Shown in pieces: positions 5,064 to 42,432 of a DNA stretch of 52,784 nt. The notes under the pieces were generated by a model that did no database searches, was not told where the DNA came from, and worked only from the letters and a program-made list of their open reading frames with translations. The first letter of the stretch is position 1. Each line of letters begins with the position of its first letter. The position numbers and the translations under genes are program-made. This DNA comes from an uncultured Flavobacteriales bacterium (GTDB lineage Bacteria; Bacteroidota; Bacteroidia; Flavobacteriales; UBA7312), in NCBI GenBank assembly GCA_913048435.1, contig CAJWWC010000008.1, forward strand, positions 1 to 52,784, written 5' to 3'.

Positions 5064-8000
5064 ATGAAAAAATATCTATATATATTTTGCTGTATAATTA
5101 GCTCAATTTCATTTTCTCAAAATATAATTTTTGATAATTTAAACTCTAGTGGGGGTAATTATAATATCGAAAATACCAACATAACATTTACTTTTGGACA
5201 GCCAATAGTTGGAACGATTTCAAATACAGAAAATTTTATTACTCAAGGATTTCAACAAAACTTTGATGAAATCAGTGGATGTACAGATGAAAACGCATAC
5301 AATTATGACCCTCAAGCTGTCACCGATGATGGTTCATGCTACCCAGTTATTTATGGCTGTATGGATTCAACTGCATTTAACTATATTATACCAACAGGTG
5401 ATGTAATGGTTGATGTCAATACAGATGATAATTCATGCTATCCGGTTATTGAGGGTTGTACCCATCAAGATGCATTCAATTACAACCCTATAGCTAATGT
5501 AGATGATGGATCTTGTATTGGTGGTAATATTGTGGCTCCATACTGTGAAAATTTTGATTCTGGACCTCCTGATGATTTTTTGGGTGTAGATGTATATTAC
5601 TCTAATTCTGATCCTTATGATTATTGGTTTTTAAATTCGTTTGAAACAACTAATCCAGAAACAGGACCTTCTGACGATATTACTGGAGGTGGAAACTACA
5701 TAGTAACATACCCTTACACTTATACAGATATTACTACCGCTTCTTCTATGCAAACTCACTGGGATATATCTGCATTATCTAACCCGGCTCTATCTTTTTA
5801 TGTGCATATGTTTGGCCCTACAACTGGTGAAGTTATAGTTTGGGTTAATGGTAATATTGAATGGTATTTATCGGGTAATCAAGGAGATCAATGGAATTTT
5901 GTTCAATTAGATTTAGCAAATTATGCTGGTTCAATAAATATTTTTGTTGAATTTATGGTTGCTCCTGGTGAAAGTGATATAGCATTTGATGAAGTATGTG
6001 TTAATGAATTATTAACAATTTATGGTTGTACAGATCCAGAAGCTTTTAATTATAACTTTAATGCCAACATAGATGATGGTTCTTGTATGTCAATCATTGA
6101 AGGTTGCACAGATGAGACTGCTTTCAATTATGATATAACAGCTAATACAGATGATGGTTCATGTGTAGCAGTTTTATTAGGCTGTACTGATCCGCAGGCT
6201 TTTAATTATAACTCGTCAGCGAACACCGACGACGGTTCATGTGTTGCCGTCATATATGGTTGTACAAATCCAGAAGCTTTTAATTATAATTCTTTAGCAA
6301 ATACTGATAATGGTACATGCATTGCAGTAGTTTATGGCTGTATGGATCCAGATGCATTTAATTATAATTCAAATGCCAATATTGATGATGGTTCTTGTAT
6401 GTCAATCATTGAGGGATGTACAGATGAGACTGCTTTTAATTATGACATAACAGCTAATACAGATGATGGTTCATGTACACCTTTTGTTTATGGATGCACA
6501 GATACGGATGCAATTAATTATTACCCTGGCTCTAATTCAGATGATGGTTCTTGTATTTATTTAGGTTGTACAGATCCAAATGCATTTAATTATGATATAA
6601 CAGCTAATACAGATGATGGTTCATGTGTGCCGGTTGTCTATGGTTGTACTGATGAAAATGCAATCAATTATGATGATCAGGCTAATGTTGATGATGGAAG
6701 TTGTAACTCATGCGAAACTTCAGCAATATTATACGCTACATCCCAAGATGAAAATTCAGTTAGCGTAGAGGTAATAAGCGGATTTCCATTTGAAGATGGA
6801 TCTTATAATATTCAATGGTATGACAATGAAAATAACCTTATTGAAGATAATATAAATAATCAGGTTTTGGATAATTTCACATCAACTTTATCTAATGCTT
6901 GTAATGGTATTTATTCAATCCATCTCTCTGATGCTGTGTGTACAAATCCAATTATTTTTGATATCGCTGTAACTGAAAGTGAATGTCTTATATATGGCTG
7001 TACCGATAATTATGCCGATAACTTTGACCCAAGTGCTAATATTGAAGACGGAAGTTGCGTGTATGATGAAATATGTAATTCATTTAATATTTTACTTATT
7101 AGCGTATCTCATGTTAGTGTAAATGGTGGAAATGATGGTTCAATTATTGCAACTGCAACTGGAGGATCAGGAAATTATAGTTATTTTGTGTATAGTGATG
7201 GAATGTTACAAAACCCATATGTTTTAAGTGCAGGAAATCATTTAATTCAAATGTATGATTATGAGACAGAATGTATATCATATTTAGAGGTTGTTATAAA
7301 TGAACCAGCCAGTAGTTATTTCCAGTGTACTTCTGAAGGTTGTGTTGAAACTTTATTGAGTGAAGGTAATTACTCCAGTCTTGAACAATGTGGATTAAAT
7401 TGTGCAGAAATAAGTCCTTGTGATAATATACCAACAGGCTTATATGTTGATAATATCATTCATAATAGAGTTGTATTTAATTGGGATCCTCCAACTAATG
7501 CACCCTCACACTACATGATTCGTTATCGCCCAGTGGGGACATCTTCCTGGACAGTCATGACAGCTGGAACTGTAAATTCTAATGAGTTCTATGGAACTAG
7601 TAGAACACGTTTTTTTATGGAACCATCAACCACCTATGAGTGGAATATTAGAGCAAGAGTATTGAATGAGGATGGTACAACCAATTGTCAGTCACAGTGG
7701 TCGAACATTAGTGAATATACAACACTAGATGCATGTGCAAACCTAGAAAACCTATCAGCTTCAACTGAAGCAATATGGGTGAATTTAAGTGCTGATGTAC
7801 CAAGTGGAGATTGGGGTATTTGGCAATCCAAAGGAAAATTAAGAGTGGTAGGGACGAATTCGTTTCGTTATGTTAACGGAGATACAAATGGAAATATTAA
7901 CGTTCTAAAAGGAAATTTTGATCCAGTAACGGATTATGAATGGCATACAAAAGCATGGTGTACTGGTAATGTAGATTCTGATGGTATATCTGATCCTTTG

Positions 8001-8615
8001 TATCATTCAGGATGGGGTGAGTTCTCAACTTTTTCTACTCAAGAGCCATGTGATAAAATGCCAATCAACCTTTCTACTAGTGCAAATTTTAGTCAAACAG
8101 CAATTACAATGTCATGGGATACTCCTCTTAGTGGTGAACCTGATCATTACTTTTTGGAACTGACTAAATTGTCCACAGGACAAATATGGGCATGGAACAA
8201 TATTGCTGGTTCTGATAACTCTAAAACTAAATTTGGTTTATCAGCTGGAGAATATTCATGGAGAATAAGAGGTGCTTGTGGAAGTAATGGTACCACATGG
8301 GCAACAATTTTTTCTGAGCCCGTTAATTATACACTTGATGGTGTAAGACTAAATAATAATGATATTTCAAGTTTAAATGTTTATCCTAATCCATCAAGAA
8401 AAATATTTAATATCGAATTTAATGTCATAGAAAGTCAAGATGTTAAAATTGAAATTGTAAATGTTTTAGGTAAAGTTATTTTTAATGAAAAAATTAGAAA
8501 TTTTGAAGGCAATTATATGAATTCGTTTAACATGAAAAATGAATCAAAGGGAGTATACATACTTAAAGTATACTCAAATGATGGAATTTTAAGTAGAAAA
8601 TTAACACTTCAATAA
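5064..8615 (+). CDS. Giant T9SS-secreted Cys/Asp-rich repeat protein
   Basis: 1183 aa with a signal peptide (MKKYLYIFCCIISSISFSQ) and an N-terminal segment common to flavobacterial secreted proteins (FTFGQPIVGT...ITQGFQQ). Thirteen copies of a ~25-residue repeat follow, consensus GCTDPxAFNYxxxANxDDGSC, at ~72-150, ~320-548 and ~644-667. The paired Cys and DDGS loops suggest disulphide-bonded, possibly calcium-binding units. Between the first two blocks (~157-316) lies a MAM/concanavalin-like beta domain (YCENFDSG...DEVCVNE). After the repeats come a SprB-like GG repeat (~671-747), a short Cys motif, three fibronectin III-like domains (~786-1090) and a T9SS type A tail (VYPNPSRKIF..., ~1096-1183). 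It is probably an outer-surface adhesin or biofilm protein; the ligand is unknown. It lies 2 bases before the next gene, so the two are co-transcribed. Repeat DNA shows recent duplication (6060-6164 and 6372-6476). Confidence 0.85.
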   Translation: MKKYLYIFCCIISSISFSQNIIFDNLNSSGGNYNIENTNITFTFGQPIVGTISNTENFITQGFQQNFDEISGCTDENAYNYDPQAVTDDGSCYPVIYGCMDSTAFNYIIPTGDVMVDVNTDDNSCYPVIEGCTHQDAFNYNPIANVDDGSCIGGNIVAPYCENFDSGPPDDFLGVDVYYSNSDPYDYWFLNSFETTNPETGPSDDITGGGNYIVTYPYTYTDITTASSMQTHWDISALSNPALSFYVHMFGPTTGEVIVWVNGNIEWYLSGNQGDQWNFVQLDLANYAGSINIFVEFMVAPGESDIAFDEVCVNELLTIYGCTDPEAFNYNFNANIDDGSCMSIIEGCTDETAFNYDITANTDDGSCVAVLLGCTDPQAFNYNSSANTDDGSCVAVIYGCTNPEAFNYNSLANTDNGTCIAVVYGCMDPDAFNYNSNANIDDGSCMSIIEGCTDETAFNYDITANTDDGSCTPFVYGCTDTDAINYYPGSNSDDGSCIYLGCTDPNAFNYDITANTDDGSCVPVVYGCTDENAINYDDQANVDDGSCNSCETSAILYATSQDENSVSVEVISGFPFEDGSYNIQWYDNENNLIEDNINNQVLDNFTSTLSNACNGIYSIHLSDAVCTNPIIFDIAVTESECLIYGCTDNYADNFDPSANIEDGSCVYDEICNSFNILLISVSHVSVNGGNDGSIIATATGGSGNYSYFVYSDGMLQNPYVLSAGNHLIQMYDYETECISYLEVVINEPASSYFQCTSEGCVETLLSEGNYSSLEQCGLNCAEISPCDNIPTGLYVDNIIHNRVVFNWDPPTNAPSHYMIRYRPVGTSSWTVMTAGTVNSNEFYGTSRTRFFMEPSTTYEWNIRARVLNEDGTTNCQSQWSNISEYTTLDACANLENLSASTEAIWVNLSADVPSGDWGIWQSKGKLRVVGTNSFRYVNGDTNGNINVLKGNFDPVTDYEWHTKAWCTGNVDSDGISDPLYHSGWGEFSTFSTQEPCDKMPINLSTSANFSQTAITMSWDTPLSGEPDHYFLELTKLSTGQIWAWNNIAGSDNSKTKFGLSAGEYSWRIRGACGSNGTTWATIFSEPVNYTLDGVRLNNNDISSLNVYPNPSRKIFNIEFNVIESQDVKIEIVNVLGKVIFNEKIRNFEGNYMNSFNMKNESKGVYILKVYSNDGILSRKLTLQ
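6060..6164 (+). repeat. 105-bp coding duplication, copy 1
   Basis: This segment encodes two adjacent repeat junctions and matches 6372-6476 at 98 of 105 bases. All seven differences fall in third codon positions and change no amino acid. The copies sit 312 bases apart in the same frame. Confidence 0.9.
6372..6476 (+). repeat. 105-bp coding duplication, copy 2
   Basis: Second copy of the 6060-6164 segment, same frame and identical protein. It is part of the Cys/Asp-rich repeat array of the 1183-aa secreted protein. Confidence 0.9.
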
Positions 8616-31291: not shown

Positions 31292-31612
31292 CTAGAAAGT
31301 AACGGTTTTATCGCAATTTCTAATTAATTCATATAAATCTTTCATAGTAGATAATGGGCATAATTCCGAACTATCTTGTTGTCTGAGATTAAGGCAAGTA
31401 CCACAAGCCAAAATCTGACCACCATTATTAACAAAAGATTGGGCTAAATCATTAATCGGAAATTTTTTAGAATGAAGAGATTCATACTCTACCCCACTCG
31501 CTAAAAGAAAAAGACGAACCTCGTCTTTTTCTTTTAAGGAAAAGTTAGCCAAACGAAAAGCGTTAAAAACAAGCTCTGCATCTAAGCTATATATTATTAT
31601 TCCTAATTTCAT
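31292..31612 (-). CDS. DsrE family protein, coupled to the upstream TonB receptor
   Basis: 106 aa when started at the ATG at 31612-31610; the open frame goes further but only inside the receptor gene. The sequence begins MKLGIIIYSLDAELVFNAFRLAN, the DsrE Rossmann-like start, and has a Cys-containing loop ILACGTCLNLRQQDSSELCP with three cysteines where sulfur-relay DsrE proteins carry their reactive cysteine. DsrE-fold proteins carry persulfide sulfur or form small multimers; the exact role here is unknown. Stop and start overlap as TGATG with the receptor gene, a strong sign of translational coupling, so it probably serves the same metal- or thiol-related function. Confidence 0.82.
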   Translation of the reverse strand: MKLGIIIYSLDAELVFNAFRLANFSLKEKDEVRLFLLASGVEYESLHSKKFPINDLAQSFVNNGGQILACGTCLNLRQQDSSELCPLSTMKDLYELIRNCDKTVTF

Positions 31613-33771
31613 CAATTGATTTTTAAACGAATACCTGTATAAATTAAACGACCCACAGCAGGTGCCCATATGATTGAGGCATCAAAGTTACTGCCAAATG
31701 GATCATCGCCTCCAAGTATAGGGTTTTCTTGTTTGTAATTTAGTAAATTTTCACCACCTAAGTACACATCATAGGTTTTAAACTTCTTAGTGACTTGACT
31801 ATTTATGACATAGAATGGATCTGAAACCGTTTTATTGTCTTCAATGAGTGGGTGGTATGGAATTCTACTTTCTCCAATGTAATTCCAAGTAGCATCAAAC
31901 ATCCATTTATTGATATGATTTGTAGCATATGCAAAATTAACTAAAGCTCTATTTTCTGGCACTAAAGGAGCTAGCATCTTCTCACCATCATAAGTAGAAT
32001 AGACTTGGTTGATTTTATAAGCAAGTTTCACATCAAAACGATCAAATAATTCATAATTAAAATCAAATTGAATACTGTTTGAATAAGATTCACCATCTAA
32101 ATTGTAAAATCTTAGTTTAGTAGGGTCTTCAATATCTACTATCACTTGATTTTCAAAATCTGTTCGGTATGCATCTGCATTGAATGATCCTTCTCTTTCA
32201 AAAAGTTTAAAACAATGCGTGAAATTAACACCGTAGTTCCAAGCCACTTCAACACCTAAACTATCTTGTATTTCAAATTCTCTGGAAGAGGCAAAATAAG
32301 AGGTGTTTTCAGCAATAGGATTAGCTACTCGCATAGCCTTTCCTACAGATAACCTTACTACTGTTTGATCTGAAGGATTATATTTTAAATTTAAGCGTGG
32401 TAAATATTCAAAACCTTGCGTATTATGATAATCTCCACGAATACCTGCAACTATAGTCAACTCAGAGGGTGAAGTATAACTATACTCTGTAAAAATACCA
32501 GTTGTTAGGTCAACTCTATCAAAATTGGTAGTTTCATAATTCTCGGTATATCTATCGGCATAATAACTTATCCCATATTTTAGTAGATGATCTATTTTAG
32601 AAATAAAAGTTTGACCTATTAGATTTAAATATGCACTTTCTTGCAAGGAGTTGTAATCGGTAAATCCAAACTTTATAGCTTGGTTGTGTCTTCTAAAAGC
32701 CGATTGCAATCCGATACTTTTTCCTGTTTTATAAGGCATTTTCAAACCTGATTTACTATTAAACTCTAAAAGAGTGTTGTCTATAAGTACTTTATAAGGA
32801 TTACTAATTGAACGAATTTGTCCACCTTCTCGTTCATCAACTAATACACGACCAACTAGATTAATTCTATAACTTTCCGTTTCTGTAAGCCATCGATTCA
32901 GAACATTGACAGATTTAATATGGGGCATGTCCAAAAATCCATTCTCGTTTTCGTCAACTTCTTTAGTATGATAATTAACACTAGTAAAGAGATTAGAAGT
33001 CCATTTACCTGTTTTTTTAGCAAACTGCAGATTATTTTCAAATTTACTCTCTGAATTGGTGTAAAAGTTCCAATAAATTTTATCGGTATTTTCAGGTTTA
33101 AAATATTCTAAGTTGATTTGACCAGCAAAAGACTCAAAGCCATTTATTACCGAACCAGCTCCTTTAATGATCTGTATTGACTCTATCCATGTACCAGGCA
33201 CATAGGTTAATCCATAAGCAGAAGAAAGCCCTCTTATTAAAGGCACATTTTCTTGTGTTATTTGAGTGTAAATACCATCTAATCCCAACATTTTAATTTG
33301 CTTGGCACCAGAAACAGCATCTGTAAAAGAAACATCAACAGTTGCGTTGGTTTCGAAACTTTCTGAAAGATTACAACAAGCCGCTTTTTGCAATTCCTTA
33401 CTAGAAATTTCTTGTACCTGTAATGAATTAACCATTGACAATTCAGTAGTATTAACTTTTGACTCAACTATCACTTCCTTTATATCTACGGACTCGCTAA
33501 GAAATATAGTAAGAAAAGATTGGTTCTCTACCTCAATAGTTTTTGGTTGAAAACCAATATAAGTTACCTTAATATTAGCTGGTAACTTATCAACTTCAAG
33601 TTTAAACTTACCGTTTACATCTGAAGTTGTGCCTATTGTTTTGTTTTCTACAACTATGTTAGCTCCTACAAGAGGTAATCCATTTTGATCGTTTATTTTT
33701 CCGTTGATATTACCCTGTGCATAAATAAACAAAGCACTAATTTGAAATGCTATTAAAACTATATATTTCAT
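31612..33771 (-). CDS. TonB-dependent receptor with CC motif before the plug (putative metal receptor)
   Basis: 719 aa. A signal peptide ends at FIYAQ, a CarboxypepD_reg-like domain spans ~20-95 (NGKINDQNGLPLVGANIVV), a plug domain ~115-230, and a 22-strand-type barrel runs to ~719. At the start of the plug is KAACCNLSESFETNATVDV with vicinal Cys132-Cys133, then KMLGLDGIYTQITQENVPLI. This cysteine-bearing plug is typical of a Bacteroidota receptor subgroup found next to heavy-metal proteins. A copper-like substrate is inferred from that context and from the Cys/His-rich gene upstream (33832-34320). The downstream DsrE gene overlaps the stop by one base. Confidence 0.9.
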   Translation of the reverse strand: MKYIVLIAFQISALFIYAQGNINGKINDQNGLPLVGANIVVENKTIGTTSDVNGKFKLEVDKLPANIKVTYIGFQPKTIEVENQSFLTIFLSESVDIKEVIVESKVNTTELSMVNSLQVQEISSKELQKAACCNLSESFETNATVDVSFTDAVSGAKQIKMLGLDGIYTQITQENVPLIRGLSSAYGLTYVPGTWIESIQIIKGAGSVINGFESFAGQINLEYFKPENTDKIYWNFYTNSESKFENNLQFAKKTGKWTSNLFTSVNYHTKEVDENENGFLDMPHIKSVNVLNRWLTETESYRINLVGRVLVDEREGGQIRSISNPYKVLIDNTLLEFNSKSGLKMPYKTGKSIGLQSAFRRHNQAIKFGFTDYNSLQESAYLNLIGQTFISKIDHLLKYGISYYADRYTENYETTNFDRVDLTTGIFTEYSYTSPSELTIVAGIRGDYHNTQGFEYLPRLNLKYNPSDQTVVRLSVGKAMRVANPIAENTSYFASSREFEIQDSLGVEVAWNYGVNFTHCFKLFEREGSFNADAYRTDFENQVIVDIEDPTKLRFYNLDGESYSNSIQFDFNYELFDRFDVKLAYKINQVYSTYDGEKMLAPLVPENRALVNFAYATNHINKWMFDATWNYIGESRIPYHPLIEDNKTVSDPFYVINSQVTKKFKTYDVYLGGENLLNYKQENPILGGDDPFGSNFDASIIWAPAVGRLIYTGIRLKIN

Positions 33772-33831
33772 AATTTAATTATTGATATTAATACTAAACC
33801 ATTTCTTGTTAAAGTTTTGGTTATTTAATAA

Positions 33832-34320
33832 TCAAATTCGAAATACTTGAAAAAGTGCTAATTGTTGAGAATAGGTTTTGGGAGGTGGTAAATCAAAATT
33901 ATTCCAAGATATATGTGAGCAATAACTTAGAAGTTTTTTAATGCCTATATCTCTAACAAATGCTTGCACAAATGATGGAATAGATACAGGTTTATGGACA
34001 GGAGTATCAAATACAAATGATACTAGACGAACATCTATAAAACAACAGCAACAGAAGGAAATAAAATTACATTCGCAAGTTGAAATAGGCGCTACTTCCT
34101 CTGCAGACTCAGAAGCGCAACAAACGAATATTTCTTGTTCAAACTGCTCTGTCTCGCAACAAGCCGATGCTTCTTGACAAATAGATGTATCTAACTTTTT
34201 TTGTTCTGACGTTAAATCTGATTTATGAGAATGGTTTAAGATTACTGGAACACCAATAGATCCAACCAACATAAAAAGGCATAAAAGGTGACTGATAAAT
34301 TGTTTTGCAAAAATATTCAC
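33832..34320 (-). CDS. Small Cys-rich envelope protein (HYC_CC_PP-like)
   Basis: 162 aa from a GTG start. A membrane or signal segment (~8-30, SHLLCLFMLVGSIGVPVIL) is followed by the His pair NHSH, a series of cysteine pairs (ACC, VCC, CEC) and a CCCC run (FCCCCFIDV), then a C-terminal part with the double-proline motif DLPPPKTYSQQ. About 13 cysteines occur in 162 residues. The His, CC and PP order resembles the small Bacteroidota family named after those letters, usually encoded next to TonB receptors for metals. A periplasmic metal-binding or metal-sensing role (copper is most plausible) is inferred. TAATTTTA lies four bases before the GTG. The receptor gene follows after 60 bases. Confidence 0.7.
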   Translation of the reverse strand: MNIFAKQFISHLLCLFMLVGSIGVPVILNHSHKSDLTSEQKKLDTSICQEASACCETEQFEQEIFVCCASESAEEVAPISTCECNFISFCCCCFIDVRLVSFVFDTPVHKPVSIPSFVQAFVRDIGIKKLLSYCSHISWNNFDLPPPKTYSQQLALFQVFRI

Positions 34321-34324
34321 TATG

Positions 34325-34332
34325 TAAAATTA
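34325..34332 (-). promoter_or_regulatory. -7-like element four bases before the Cys-rich gene
   Basis: On the minus strand TAATTTTA (one mismatch to TAnnTTTG) is followed by CATA and the GTG at 34320. It sits in the 18-base gap after rocD, so the metal operon may start here. Confidence 0.4.
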
Positions 34333-38626: not shown

Positions 38627-40798
38627 TTAAAGCTTCACTTTAAACCCAATTAAAAAACGCCTGCTTTGTAAAGGACCATAAGCATATGAGGTATCAAAAT
38701 CATCACCAAATGGATTTTGCCAATCTATCAGAGGTGAAACTTGTGTATAATTAAATATATTTTTTACGCCCATAAAAGCAGTTAAGCTTTCGCTAAATAA
38801 TTTTTTGATTTGCAAATGGTGTTGAGAAAACCAAGGAGATTCCTCTGCTCTTTCAAACGGATGAGGGAAAGTAGGTAATGACATAGGCCCAGTAACTTTA
38901 GTTGTCCAATCAATAGAAGTATTTATTTTATCCCAATTGTAAGACAAAGAGAAAACTCCTGTAAAAGAAGGTGCAAACAATTCGTCCTTTCTAAAATTAT
39001 TATAATCTACAGAATAGACATCTAAATAAGTTCCTCCTGAATTGATACTTAAAGGGAATTCAAAGTTCTGCTGAATATTAAAAGCTAATCCTCTAGAAAT
39101 CGAAAAACCATCCAAATTGGCATATATAATTTGATTGGGATTTGCCTCATAGTCAGGTGCTATCTTATTCGTAAAATAGGTGTAAAAAGCATCTACATCA
39201 ATGCTTCCTGTACTTCTTCCTAAAGAAAAAATATGGTTAACGTTTAGATTTATATTGTAAGACTCTTCAGGTTTTAAATCTTCCACTAACAACACTTCCC
39301 TACTACCTGTTAGAGAAGCGTGATCTTCAGTAAAAAGATTGACTATTCTAAATCCAGTTCCGGCATTCAAACGAAAGGTCGTATATGTCTTGGGTTTAAA
39401 TTTAAGATTCAATCTAGGGGAAAAAATAAATCCGTGCTCTTCATGGTAATCTGTTCTAATCCCTAAAAGTGAAGTCCATTTTTTATTTAAAATTATTTCA
39501 TCTTGAACAAATAATGCTGGTATAAATTTACGTTCATTGATATTAGCCAAGGTACTATCAACAAAGGTTTGAAAACGGTAGCTTAGTCCAGAAATGAAAT
39601 CATGATTGTAACCAATACTTTTATTCCATATTAGGTTAGCAAAATAGATATTTTGAAAAGCCTCATACTTTGTATTTCCATAATAACTGTCTTGGTGATG
39701 GTAATTAAAAGATGCATCAATTCGAACATCCTCATCCATTGGTAACTCATAAGAAGCTGCTAACTCTATTCTATCAGTATAAATAGATTCACCATAAATA
39801 CTGTCATTTCCTCTAAGGTTATCACTCCATTCTTTTACACCTCCACTTCTATCTTCATGATAATATTTAGCTGAAAGTAATAAGTTTTTTCGAGTCTTTC
39901 TTTTAAAATTCCATTGTTTAAATAAAGATAATCGTTCTGACAATGGAATATCTGTAAAGTTATCTTTATTGTAGTCTAAAAAATTATCCATTTTAAAGTA
40001 GTTACCACTAAGTAATAGATTTACTTTTTTCATTTTAGGAGCATAAGCAAAATCAATATTTTTTTCTAAATGAGAAGTGATGAAACTTTCTAGTTCTAAG
40101 TTAGAAACGTCCATTGGGTCTTTAGTTAAAATATTAATTACACCAGCAACTGCTTCAGTTCCATAGAGTGTTGACGAAGGGCCTTTTATAATTTCTATTT
40201 GCTTAATTAAAGAGGTAGCAATACCATTAAGTCCATATACCGTAGATAGAGAACTCATTATAGGCATTCCATTAATTAAGACTAAAGTATAAGGTCCTTC
40301 CATACCATTAATGTGTATATCATTTGTACCACATACACCACAATTAATTTGTTTTTGAACACCATTTATATGTTCAATAACCTCCATAACATTGTTGGTA
40401 GCTATCTTTTTAAGGAACTTTTGAGTGATAATATCCATCTTTACAGGAGTAGAATTCAGAAATGTTTCTTTCATAGTACCTGTAACCACAACTTGTTCAA
40501 TATCATATAATAAAGGCTCTAAAATAATATCTAATGTATTTTTTCCAGTTTGAATTGAAATATTTTTCTTTAACTTCTTAAAACCAATAGCAGAAAAAAT
40601 AAATTCATAGCTTCCTTCTTTTATGTCGTTAATTTTAAAAAAACCATCTGCATTGGAAGCTGTTCCAATAGATTGACCTTTTACAGAAATTGAAGCAAAA
40701 GGAATGGGTAAATCAGATTTAATAGTACCAGATAAACTTTGGGAATAAAGTTGGAATTGCAGTATTAAAAAGCAAATGATATAAATTATTTTTTTCAT
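38627..40798 (-). CDS. TonB-dependent receptor with CxxC motif in the plug (putative metal uptake)
   Basis: 723 aa. A signal peptide ends at QLYSQ, a CarboxypepD_reg-like domain spans ~20-95 (SGTIKSDLPIPFASISVKGQ), a plug ~105-235, and a barrel runs to the C-terminus (...RFLIGFKVKL). The plug holds NGVQKQINCGVCGTNDIHING with Cys153 and Cys156 plus a nearby His, a metal-binding-like site in the region that gates the pore, then GMEGPYTLVLINGMPIMSSL. The divergent neighbours are a DtxR/MntR-type metal regulator and a ZIP transporter, so uptake of a divalent metal (Zn, Fe or Mn) or a metal chelate is the best inference. The shared 141-base region has a candidate operator. Confidence 0.9.
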   Translation of the reverse strand: MKKIIYIICFLILQFQLYSQSLSGTIKSDLPIPFASISVKGQSIGTASNADGFFKINDIKEGSYEFIFSAIGFKKLKKNISIQTGKNTLDIILEPLLYDIEQVVVTGTMKETFLNSTPVKMDIITQKFLKKIATNNVMEVIEHINGVQKQINCGVCGTNDIHINGMEGPYTLVLINGMPIMSSLSTVYGLNGIATSLIKQIEIIKGPSSTLYGTEAVAGVINILTKDPMDVSNLELESFITSHLEKNIDFAYAPKMKKVNLLLSGNYFKMDNFLDYNKDNFTDIPLSERLSLFKQWNFKRKTRKNLLLSAKYYHEDRSGGVKEWSDNLRGNDSIYGESIYTDRIELAASYELPMDEDVRIDASFNYHHQDSYYGNTKYEAFQNIYFANLIWNKSIGYNHDFISGLSYRFQTFVDSTLANINERKFIPALFVQDEIILNKKWTSLLGIRTDYHEEHGFIFSPRLNLKFKPKTYTTFRLNAGTGFRIVNLFTEDHASLTGSREVLLVEDLKPEESYNINLNVNHIFSLGRSTGSIDVDAFYTYFTNKIAPDYEANPNQIIYANLDGFSISRGLAFNIQQNFEFPLSINSGGTYLDVYSVDYNNFRKDELFAPSFTGVFSLSYNWDKINTSIDWTTKVTGPMSLPTFPHPFERAEESPWFSQHHLQIKKLFSESLTAFMGVKNIFNYTQVSPLIDWQNPFGDDFDTSYAYGPLQSRRFLIGFKVKL

Positions 40799-40886
40799 TT
40801 AATTAGATTTAATTGACTTAAGAATTATTAAAAATACATTGTTACTGAGAAATTGATGAAAATATAAGTAAACTTTGAATTTAAAA

Positions 40887-40902
40887 TTTAGGTAAATCTA
40901 AA
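40887..40902. promoter_or_regulatory. Candidate operator for the DtxR/MntR-type regulator
   Basis: TTTAGGTAAATCTAAA is an imperfect palindrome: its outer TTTAG/CTAAA half-sites match exactly and resemble DtxR/IdeR boxes (TTAGG...CCTAA). It lies in the divergent region between the TonB receptor and the regulator gene. Binding is inferred. Confidence 0.4.
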
Positions 40903-40927
40903 AATTAAATTAGATATATAAAATTAT

Positions 40928-40935
40928 TATATTTG
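40928..40935 (+). promoter_or_regulatory. -7 element four bases before the metal regulator gene
   Basis: TATATTTG matches TAnnTTTG exactly and is followed by AATT and the ATG at 40940. The candidate operator lies 25 bases upstream, where it would cover the -33 region. Confidence 0.6.
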
Positions 40936-40939
40936 AATT

Positions 40940-41596
40940 ATGATTACATTAGCTGAGGAAAATTACTTGAAAGCAATACTCAAGCTTTCCAAAAATTCAG
41001 AAAATTCAATATCTACAAACGCTATTGCTGATGAACTTGAGACCAAAGCATCATCTGTTACAGATATGATTAAAAAGTTAACTGATAAACAATTGGTTGA
41101 TTATGTTCCCTATCGTGGAGTAAATCTTAGTAAATCTGGTCTTAATAAAGCCATAGAAATTGTTAGAAAACATCGTCTTTGGGAAGTGTTTTTAGTCACT
41201 AAACTTCAGTTTAAATGGGATGAAGTTCACTATATTGCTGAGCAATTAGAGCACATAAAATCACAAAAATTAGTAGATGCATTAGATACTTACTTAGGCT
41301 ATCCACAACACGACCCACACGGAGAACCTATCCCCAACAAAGATGGACAATTTCCGAAATCATTCTCAAAGCGTCTTAGTGAATTAGAAAAAGGAAGTAG
41401 TGGACAAGTTGTAGGTGTTTCTCAAGACAATCAATCCTTTTTACAATACCTCAATTCATTAAAAATTACACTAGGAACATCTATTAGAGTTATTCAAAAA
41501 ATAGACTTTGACAATTCATTAGAAATAACTATTAACAATGAATCTGCACACATTAGTAATGATGTGGCAAGAAACTTATTAATCAAACAAAAATGA
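40940..41596 (+). CDS. DtxR/MntR family metal-dependent transcriptional regulator
   Basis: 218 aa. Residues ~1-60 are a winged helix-turn-helix (EENYLKAILKLSKN...SISTNAIADELETKASSVTDMIKKL). Residues ~61-135 are the dimerisation and metal-binding domain, with ligands in KHRLWEVFLVTKLQFKWDEVHYIAEQLEH and the HDPHGEPIP motif. Residues ~150-218 are a FeoA/SH3-like C-terminal domain. The protein would sense Mn, Fe or Zn and repress uptake genes when the metal is plentiful. Its stop overlaps the ZIP transporter start by 4 bases (ATGA), so it probably controls its own operon and the divergent TonB receptor. Confidence 0.94.
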   Translation: MITLAEENYLKAILKLSKNSENSISTNAIADELETKASSVTDMIKKLTDKQLVDYVPYRGVNLSKSGLNKAIEIVRKHRLWEVFLVTKLQFKWDEVHYIAEQLEHIKSQKLVDALDTYLGYPQHDPHGEPIPNKDGQFPKSFSKRLSELEKGSSGQVVGVSQDNQSFLQYLNSLKITLGTSIRVIQKIDFDNSLEITINNESAHISNDVARNLLIKQK

Positions 41597-42432
41597 CAGA
41601 TCTTTATACTTGGTTTATTGAACAACACCCTGTTTTACAAGCATTATTAGCTGGATTATTTACATGGGGCTTGACTGCATCTGGAGCTGCATTGGTAGTG
41701 TTCTTTAATAAAACTAATCGTAAAATTTTAGATACTTCTTTAGGATTTACTGGTGGTGTTATGATAGCAGCTAGTTTTTGGTCTCTGTTATCACCGGCAA
41801 TTAGATATGTAGAAATGCAAAATGAAATTGGAACTTCTTATTTACCATCTTGGTTTCCTCCAGCAATTGGATTTTTCTTAGGCGCTTTATTTCTATTTGG
41901 TTTAGATAAAATTATACCTCACTTACATTTATTCAAAAAAATTGAAGAAGCCGAAGGCTATCCTACGAAATGGAAAAAAACAATTTTACTAGTATTAGCT
42001 ATTGCCCTTCACAATATTCCTGAAGGTTTAGCTTTAGGAGTAGCTTTTGGAGCTATATCAAATGGTATTCCAGGATTTGAAATAGGTGCCGCTATTGCCT
42101 TGGCTATTGGTATTGGCATACAGAATTTTCCAGAAGGTTTTGCTGTTTCTATGCCACTTAGAAGACAAGGCGTTAGTAAATGGAAAAGTTGGAAATGGGG
42201 GCAATTATCAGCTATTGTAGAACCTATTTTTGCTATGATTGGTGCTGCTACTGTAATATACGCATTACCAATACTTCCTTATGCCCTTGCCTTTGCTGCA
42301 GGAGCTATGATATTCATTGTAGTAGAAGAAGTGATTCCTGAAAGTCAAAGTGGTGGACATACCGATTTAGCTACTATGGGGCTTATTTCAGGATTTATTG
42401 TAATGATGATACTTGATGTAGCACTAGGATAA
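41593..42432 (+). CDS. ZIP family metal transporter (GufA-like)
   Basis: 279 aa with about eight membrane helices. The two signature helices are intact: ALHNIPEGLALGVAFG (~150-165) and IGIQNFPEGFAVSMPLRRQG (~183-202), whose His, Asn, Pro-Glu and Glu residues form the binuclear metal site. A third conserved acidic helix is FIVVEEVIPESQ. A variable His-containing loop (DKIIPHLHLF) sits between helices 3 and 4. ZIP proteins import Zn, Fe or Mn across the inner membrane. It is translationally coupled to the metal regulator; together with the divergent TonB receptor it gives a two-membrane uptake route. Confidence 0.95.
   Translation: MTDLYTWFIEQHPVLQALLAGLFTWGLTASGAALVVFFNKTNRKILDTSLGFTGGVMIAASFWSLLSPAIRYVEMQNEIGTSYLPSWFPPAIGFFLGALFLFGLDKIIPHLHLFKKIEEAEGYPTKWKKTILLVLAIALHNIPEGLALGVAFGAISNGIPGFEIGAAIALAIGIGIQNFPEGFAVSMPLRRQGVSKWKSWKWGQLSAIVEPIFAMIGAATVIYALPILPYALAFAAGAMIFIVVEEVIPESQSGGHTDLATMGLISGFIVMMILDVALG

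Follow-up and report, generated by a model that had tools for sequence, protein, structure and literature searches.

A candidate copper-uptake operon in an uncultured Flavobacteriales bacterium, with a cysteine-rich leader-like gene ahead of a TonB-dependent receptor and a DsrE-fold protein behind it

Why should the gene for a DsrE-fold protein overlap, by a single base, the gene for a TonB-dependent receptor that itself follows a small open reading frame (ORF) crowded with cysteines? The question is raised by positions 31,292 to 34,320 of contig CAJWWC010000008.1 (assembly GCA_913048435.1), of which we analysed a stretch of 52,784 nucleotides (the window). The source genome, from an uncultured Flavobacteriales bacterium, comprises 1.24 Mb in 36 contigs and is 66% complete. 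An initial annotation had read the three genes as one metal/thiol module. Our best explanation, to which we give about an even chance, is a copper-uptake operon made up of a cysteine-rich copper-sensing leader, a TonB-dependent copper importer and an added cytosolic DsrE protein acting as sulfur or thiol carrier. What is new is limited to one family, which has supplemented or replaced the HMA-domain neighbour of the receptor with a cytosolic DsrE protein of the CGTC type.

The elements on which the argument turns are the following:

34324..34332, minus strand: promoter-like box TAATTTTAC, ending 3 nt ahead of the cysteine-rich ORF's start codon.
33832..34320, minus strand: cysteine-rich ORF of 162 aa, candidate copper-sensing leader, with a hydrophobic N-terminus and in the slot of the HYC_CC_PP genes of relatives.
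34042..34053, minus strand: CCCC codons, residues 90-93 of the cysteine-rich ORF, the final cysteine motif ahead of PP, with 51 residues to PPP.
33880..33888, minus strand: PPP codons, residues 145-147 of the cysteine-rich ORF, 18 residues from the C-terminus.
31612..33771, minus strand: TonB-dependent receptor of 719 aa, AACCNLSESFETN-plug family, with Pfam plug and barrel.
33373..33378, minus strand: codons of the invariant vicinal pair Cys132-Cys133 at the plug start, present in 38/38 receptors longer than 600 aa.
31610..31614, minus strand: TGATG, overlap of receptor stop and DsrE start, a one-base overlap in 5/5 directly adjacent copies.
31292..31612, minus strand: gene for the 106-aa DsrE-fold protein (PF02635, E 6e-8).
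31394..31405, minus strand: CGTC loop codons, DsrE residues 70-73; C70, C73 and C85 are invariant in 42/42 aligned sequences.

All three genes were confirmed at their annotated positions, as were the 13 cysteines of the 162-aa protein, the receptor pair Cys132-Cys133 and the TGATG overlap. An ornithine aminotransferase gene ends 18 nt upstream of the cysteine-rich ORF, and 60 nt separate the stop of this ORF from the receptor start on the same strand. The DsrE gene starts at 31612; a 125-aa ORF from 31669 extends it in frame into the receptor and was not taken as the DsrE gene.

Named relatives are Flavobacteriales metagenome-assembled genomes and an uncultured Bacteroidetes genome. Gene order was compared in 60 relatives. 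The receptor is present in 41 of them at E<=1e-60, and 40 receptor loci were retrieved, seven from the window's GTDB family and 33 from other families. In 27 of the 40 loci the receptor is preceded by a small cysteine-rich gene that bears a C-terminal PP, in some with an HMA gene between, and an HMA protein adjoins the receptor in at least 20 (23 HMA-like neighbours were picked by eye from 22 loci and then scanned; 21 match PF00403). DsrE was found in seven of the 60 relatives, all among the ten genomes of the window's family, and in none of the 50 from other families. With the window counted, seven of the eight family genomes that have the receptor and an assembled downstream region carry DsrE beside it: directly after the receptor in G000, G001, G002, G006 and G009, and in the order receptor, HMA, DsrE in G005 and G008. 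No receptor or DsrE was found in G003 (95% complete), but its contig ends about 53 bases past the aminotransferase gene, and the contig of G007 (54% complete) stops soon after a short cysteine-rich ORF; neither genome counts among the eight. The one-base overlap reads TGATG in three of the directly adjacent copies and TAATG in two, and has outlived the switch to another stop codon that G006 and G009 show.

Outside the family, DsrE does not occur within three genes of the receptor at any of the 33 loci. A general Bacteroidota module coupling DsrE to the receptor was rejected, since among the genomes searched the coupling is confined to one GTDB family. The leader-receptor pair is a common and partly described arrangement, and DsrE is the lineage-specific part. 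Within the family the gene order, like the cysteine content of the first ORF, is well beyond chance. The initial annotation is borne out in seeing the three as a joint gene group marked by metal and thiol chemistry, and in singling out DsrE as the unusual element. The comparison of gene order that it had proposed gave a divided answer: DsrE is retained in seven of eight assembled family genomes, whereas G004 keeps the receptor without it.

In the receptor, Pfam recognizes CarbopepD_reg, plug and barrel domains, with PF07715 and PF00593 above their cut-offs. Its sole cysteines are residues 132, 133 and 520. Cys132-Cys133 is invariant in all 38 receptors longer than 600 aa (the window's and 37 others, three partial sequences being excluded), and the region around it is the most conserved part of the protein. 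As the pair is invariant with or without DsrE, these cysteines belong to the receptor family and not to a DsrE partnership; the receptor is a member of a widespread Bacteroidota family. The pair had been placed before the plug, but it sits within the start of the plug match (residues 118-217). Residues 26-143 aligned to RagA when the PDB was searched by sequence, which puts the pair at the RagA plug start. In TonB receptors in general, the plug-start segment lies near the periplasmic face. Structure prediction from a six-row alignment gave a predicted local distance difference test (pLDDT) score of 49.9, mostly below 40 in the plug, and did not confirm where the pair lies; its probable placement draws on the RagA alignment and on the general anatomy of TonB receptors.

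The DsrE protein scores 33.2 bits against PF02635, versus a cut-off of 22.7. A sequence search of the PDB returned a single chance-level match and no solved DsrE structure. Its AlphaFold model (pLDDT 93.9, predicted template modelling score 0.86) has as its best PDB match in Foldseek the DsrE/DsrF-like protein 3mc3 (E 3.3e-6), and also matches 2qs7 and, at 2.3e-3, TusBCD (2d1p). In the CGTC...C motif, C70, C73 and C85 are invariant throughout the aligned DsrE relatives, archaeal ones included (42 of the 81 sequences at hand, namely the window's and those of 41 of 80 loci). They are candidates for the persulfide-carrying cysteines of a sulfurtransferase. DsrE/TusD carriers and the DsrE domain of YedF share the fold and a cysteine ending the fourth strand, as seen in the model; the window protein differs from both in being stand-alone and in its CGTC...C motif, and its weak match to YedF (TIGR03527; 19.6 bits, DsrE half only, against a cut-off of 110 bits) does not make it a member. 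Because it begins with the first strand and has no signal peptide by eye, it should be cytosolic.

Both the receptor pair and the DsrE CGTC are family-wide features. The view that the cysteines of all three proteins form one joint device is not supported, the receptor pair being invariant whether or not DsrE is present and the DsrE cysteines being kept in 42 of 42 sequences. Nor is there support for these cysteines capturing metal at the surface, given a pair that aligns to the plug start of RagA and a DsrE protein that should be cytosolic.

Beyond the family, a scan of named genomes found 260 DsrE relatives, of which 80 were kept. Those outside the family, from archaea, Patescibacteria, Verrucomicrobia and others, are 48-65% identical; those within it are 74-94% identical across three genera. 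In a tree, all seven sequences of the family cluster together (100/97), and no sister group is resolved. Only four loci among the 80, all of the family, match the receptor, contig ends cutting many loci. At class level, DsrE has a match in 18 of 395 genomes, and the 19 match loci, the window's own excepted, have no receptor, HMA or leader in their 1.5-kb flanks. Within five genes of the 80 DsrE loci we counted an ArsR-type repressor 17 times, a SHOCT protein 17, a methyltransferase nine, a sulfide-quinone-reductase-like protein seven, a copper-type P-ATPase five and a cysteine desulfurase five times, as raw counts from simple ORF calling without base-rate control; one representative of each class was identified by Pfam, except for the ATPase and desulfurase, which were named by eye. 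Such neighbours would fit, without proving, a sulfur or thiol role near metal and sulfide stress genes.

DsrE could also be functionally unlinked to the receptor, a small mobile gene that, in a compact genome, inserted downstream of an expressed gene and stayed there for the sake of expression only. The patchy spread of the subfamily over distant phyla and its low frequency at class level speak for this, as does the loss of DsrE from G004, which kept the receptor. However, the linkage has held across three genera and through the change of HMA, and the overlap persisted despite the changed stop codon. We regard an unlinked DsrE as a serious possibility, if a somewhat less than likely one.

In the product of the first gene, 13 cysteines in 162 aa compare with 1.15% cysteine across 41 window ORFs (Poisson P ~1e-7), and they include five overlapping CC pairs, CCCC among them, in addition to an NHSH motif. 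The N-terminus was judged hydrophobic by eye. The protein matches no Pfam family at E<=10, DUF2946 included, and no NCBIfam model at E<=0.1. In the family leaders, the distance from the last CC to PP is 51 residues in six proteins and 50 in one, and PP starts at -18 in all seven, over lengths of 127-162 aa. Across 28 leaders (the window's and 27 others), PP starts at -18 in 12, -17 in four, -14 in three, -5 in eight and -24 in one; those with PP at -5, with endings such as WQPPKIG, have CC-to-PP spacers of 39-53. A TAnnTTT[A/G] box stands before the leader start in eight of nine family sequences, suggesting that the ORF begins a transcript; the box may serve as promoter, and by eye no -33 element lies at the standard distance from it. 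In L045 the box falls inside the called ORF, whose start was probably called too early.

Two other ORFs may be recorded here. The second most cysteine-rich ORF of the window (5064-8615) encodes 1183 aa with 46 cysteines. On the leader contig of G009, an opposite-strand ORF that by eye resembles eukaryotic eIF4E (L204:2482-3336) overlaps the end of the leader ORF, and this contig may therefore be chimeric.

For the cysteine-rich protein, a copper-sensing leader or a short-lived exported metal-binding protein is a better reading than a device for surface capture. If it were instead a conventional exported metal-binding protein or metallochaperone, partnering the receptor with no regulatory leader involved, copper import would still stand. 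Its 13 cysteines, NHSH and hydrophobic N-terminus would suit such a protein, and so would the conservation of LFQVFRI to the very end, as in a finished and used product. But in 27 of 40 loci the gene stands ahead of the receptor or of an HMA-receptor pair, and its CC-to-PP and PP-to-end distances stay near-constant while the rest varies. This matches the anatomy of CutF and CruR leaders and favours the leader-like reading; we consider such a conventional protein unlikely, though not to be set aside lightly.

The resemblance to known leaders may be put as one of position and anatomy and not of membership. One of these leaders is CruR (DUF2946) of Bordetella pertussis, which heads cruR-bfrG/crtA-bp2921 and is a protein of 145 residues with CXXC at 90-93 and RAPP at 139-142 (PMC9426467). 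Shared with it are the first-gene position, a small and probably exported protein, a cysteine copper motif, a near-constant spacer, PP near the C-terminus and a TonB transporter behind; PP at -5, as in CruR, also occurs in eight of the 28 Bacteroidota genes of the leader slot. The window protein differs in having no DUF2946 match, LPPPK in place of RAPP, PPP at -18, a gap of 60 nt as opposed to 162, a receptor of another family, and DsrE where a PepSY protein stands in the Bordetella operon. Like CutF (PMC9973294), it would be an exported cysteine-rich leader with C-terminal poly-proline upstream of copper genes; unlike CutF, it shows no sign of a stable stem-loop in the gap behind it. The same paper already records CutF-like proteins from Bacteroidota, often with TonB proteins nearby, and the window leader agrees with its filter in having a gene on the same strand less than 1000 nt downstream. 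According to PMC12992588, Bacteroidota yielded no copper-related RAPP/RGPP leaders, but TonB-related ones occur throughout Gram-negatives.

HYC_CC_PP (NF047658) shares the slot before the same receptor family and the CC and PP motifs. Scanned with this model, eight relatives gave four matches over the cut-off (L052, L059, L064 and L066), two below it (L040 and L061) and two without a match (L036 and L045). At class level it is found in 157 of 247 genomes at E<=0.001, with 146 over the cut-off; the window's own genome yielded none. The window protein falls below the 28-bit membership score, with no match, and has NHSH where the name implies HYC. Our literature search found no paper with 'HYC_CC_PP' and none joining 'TonB-dependent receptor', 'DsrE' and 'Bacteroidetes'. 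As to the receptor, CrtA is likewise a TonB copper transporter behind a copper-sensing leader; it is characterised by two conserved His and, according to PMC12914433, has no conserved cysteine, as opposed to the invariant pair here. OprC, as quoted in PMC11213822, is also a TonB transporter for copper, but its CxxxM-HxM motif is absent around the three receptor cysteines, none of which has Met at +4.

RNA structure was considered as well. In 24 leader gaps (four of the 28, each <25 nt, were excluded), the mean folding z was -2.1, compared with -1.4 in 54 further gaps between co-directional genes at these loci (one-sided P = 0.049), a marginal excess. With this and a z of 0.02 in the window gap, intergenic structure was dropped as support for a CutF-type stem-loop. 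Some individual leader gaps fold strongly relative to shuffles: L041:6447-6492 (z -6.7), L052 (-3.8), L054 (-5.1), L067 (-3.6) and L074 (-5.2).

The choice of copper draws on the neighbours. The HMA proteins are secreted and CopZ/MerP-like; two of them, scanned against NCBIfam, came nearest to CopZ and MerP models, below the cut-offs. In G002, a same-strand run comprises MbnP (PF20243), CCP_MauG (PF03150), an HMA protein (PF00403) with the same CCKY-type tail, and a protein that is thioredoxin-like by eye and shares 38% identity with the protein encoded after receptor-HMA-HMA in G042. PMC9426467 names MbnPH-like genes among those of copper operons headed by CruR. The CopZ-type HMA and the MbnP/CCP_MauG neighbourhood together make copper the best guess as metal, in keeping with what was first proposed. 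The run at L199:2331-6542 holds, on the same strand, MbnP, CCP_MauG, HMA, a thioredoxin-like protein that ends in a type IX secretion tail and a protein of 334 aa whose N-terminal part includes GCCSGG. About 3 kb from an HMA gene in G004, a 67-aa ORF with 11 cysteines (L200:1253-1456) is lipoprotein-like by eye.

A separate metal locus lies at 38627-42432. It includes a second TonB receptor, 28% identical to the first and with the plug motif NCGVCGTNDI, and beside this a divergent DtxR-type repressor with a FeoA domain (40940-41596) and a ZIP transporter (41593-42432). Both receptors are found on one contig in G004, G005, G006 and G008. That the first receptor takes up zinc, another thiophilic metal or a metal-thiol or sulfur compound, with DsrE handling the sulfur part in the cytosol, would accord with this locus about 5 kb away, with its recurrence on the same contigs and with HMA matches that include MerP and, at weaker scores, Zn/Cd ATPases, but we think it improbable, as the CopZ-type HMA and the MbnP/CCP_MauG neighbourhood indicate copper and the 33 outside loci without DsrE argue that the receptor substrate does not need it.

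As a copper-uptake operon the locus might work as follows, the metal, the regulation and the role of DsrE all being inferred from sequence. Transcription would start at or just before the cysteine-rich ORF, to judge from the conserved box. Its exported product would bind copper through the CC/CCCC cluster, which would alter ribosome passage at the C-terminal PPP and so set expression of the downstream genes, by analogy with published CutF and CruR. The receptor would move copper, which might be chelated, through the outer membrane, and in many relatives a secreted HMA protein would take it on in the periplasm. In the window's family, a CGTC-type DsrE gene appears to have joined the group downstream of the receptor gene, following HMA in G005 and G008 but replacing it in the window and four others. 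The one-base overlap should tie its translation to that of the receptor. DsrE would most likely act as a sulfane-sulfur or thiol carrier against copper-thiol or persulfide stress on copper entry, making no contact with the receptor.

Several observations weigh against this reading. G004, a 99% complete congener, lacks DsrE although it keeps both leader and receptor. An HMA gene of the same kind lies away from the receptor in G002 and G004, so that HMA may have moved without being functionally replaced. Genes for zinc, manganese and iron lie about 5 kb from the operon. The leader of the window has no HYC_CC_PP or DUF2946 match and no RAPP; at 162 aa it exceeds the limit of <150 aa in the CutF-like filter of PMC9973294 (two family leaders have 127 and 137 aa), and its PPP at -18 lies outside the PP position of the same filter. 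The residues after PP are also conserved, LFQVFRI to the very end in the g1 and g3 genomes, which is more than a simple stall at PP needs. The window leader-receptor gap folds no better than its shuffles, the excess over controls across all 24 gaps is marginal, and the DsrE neighbour counts are uncorrected for base rates.

A wider reading, which we put forward tentatively and hold to be rather unlikely, is that the cysteine-rich PP genes are nascent-chain copper sensors of Bacteroidota beyond the CutF and CruR definitions. They would combine a CC cluster, a spacer fixed by lineage (51 residues here) and poly-proline about 18 codons before the stop, which would leave PPP inside the exit tunnel when the ribosome reaches the stop codon. 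In the window's family, the output would have been rewired from a periplasmic HMA protein to a cytosolic CGTC carrier, coupling copper import with intracellular sulfur/thiol buffering.

Outer-membrane copper import in Bacteroidota is poorly characterised. If the copper-uptake operon proposed here is correct, a receptor family with an invariant vicinal cysteine pair, frequent among the relatives, would become a candidate for copper import under the control of a leader-peptide switch of its own. The operon would also provide a case of a cytosolic sulfur protein joining a periplasmic metal chaperone or standing in its slot, and a functional lead for a CGTC-type DsrE subfamily that is spread over bacteria and archaea.

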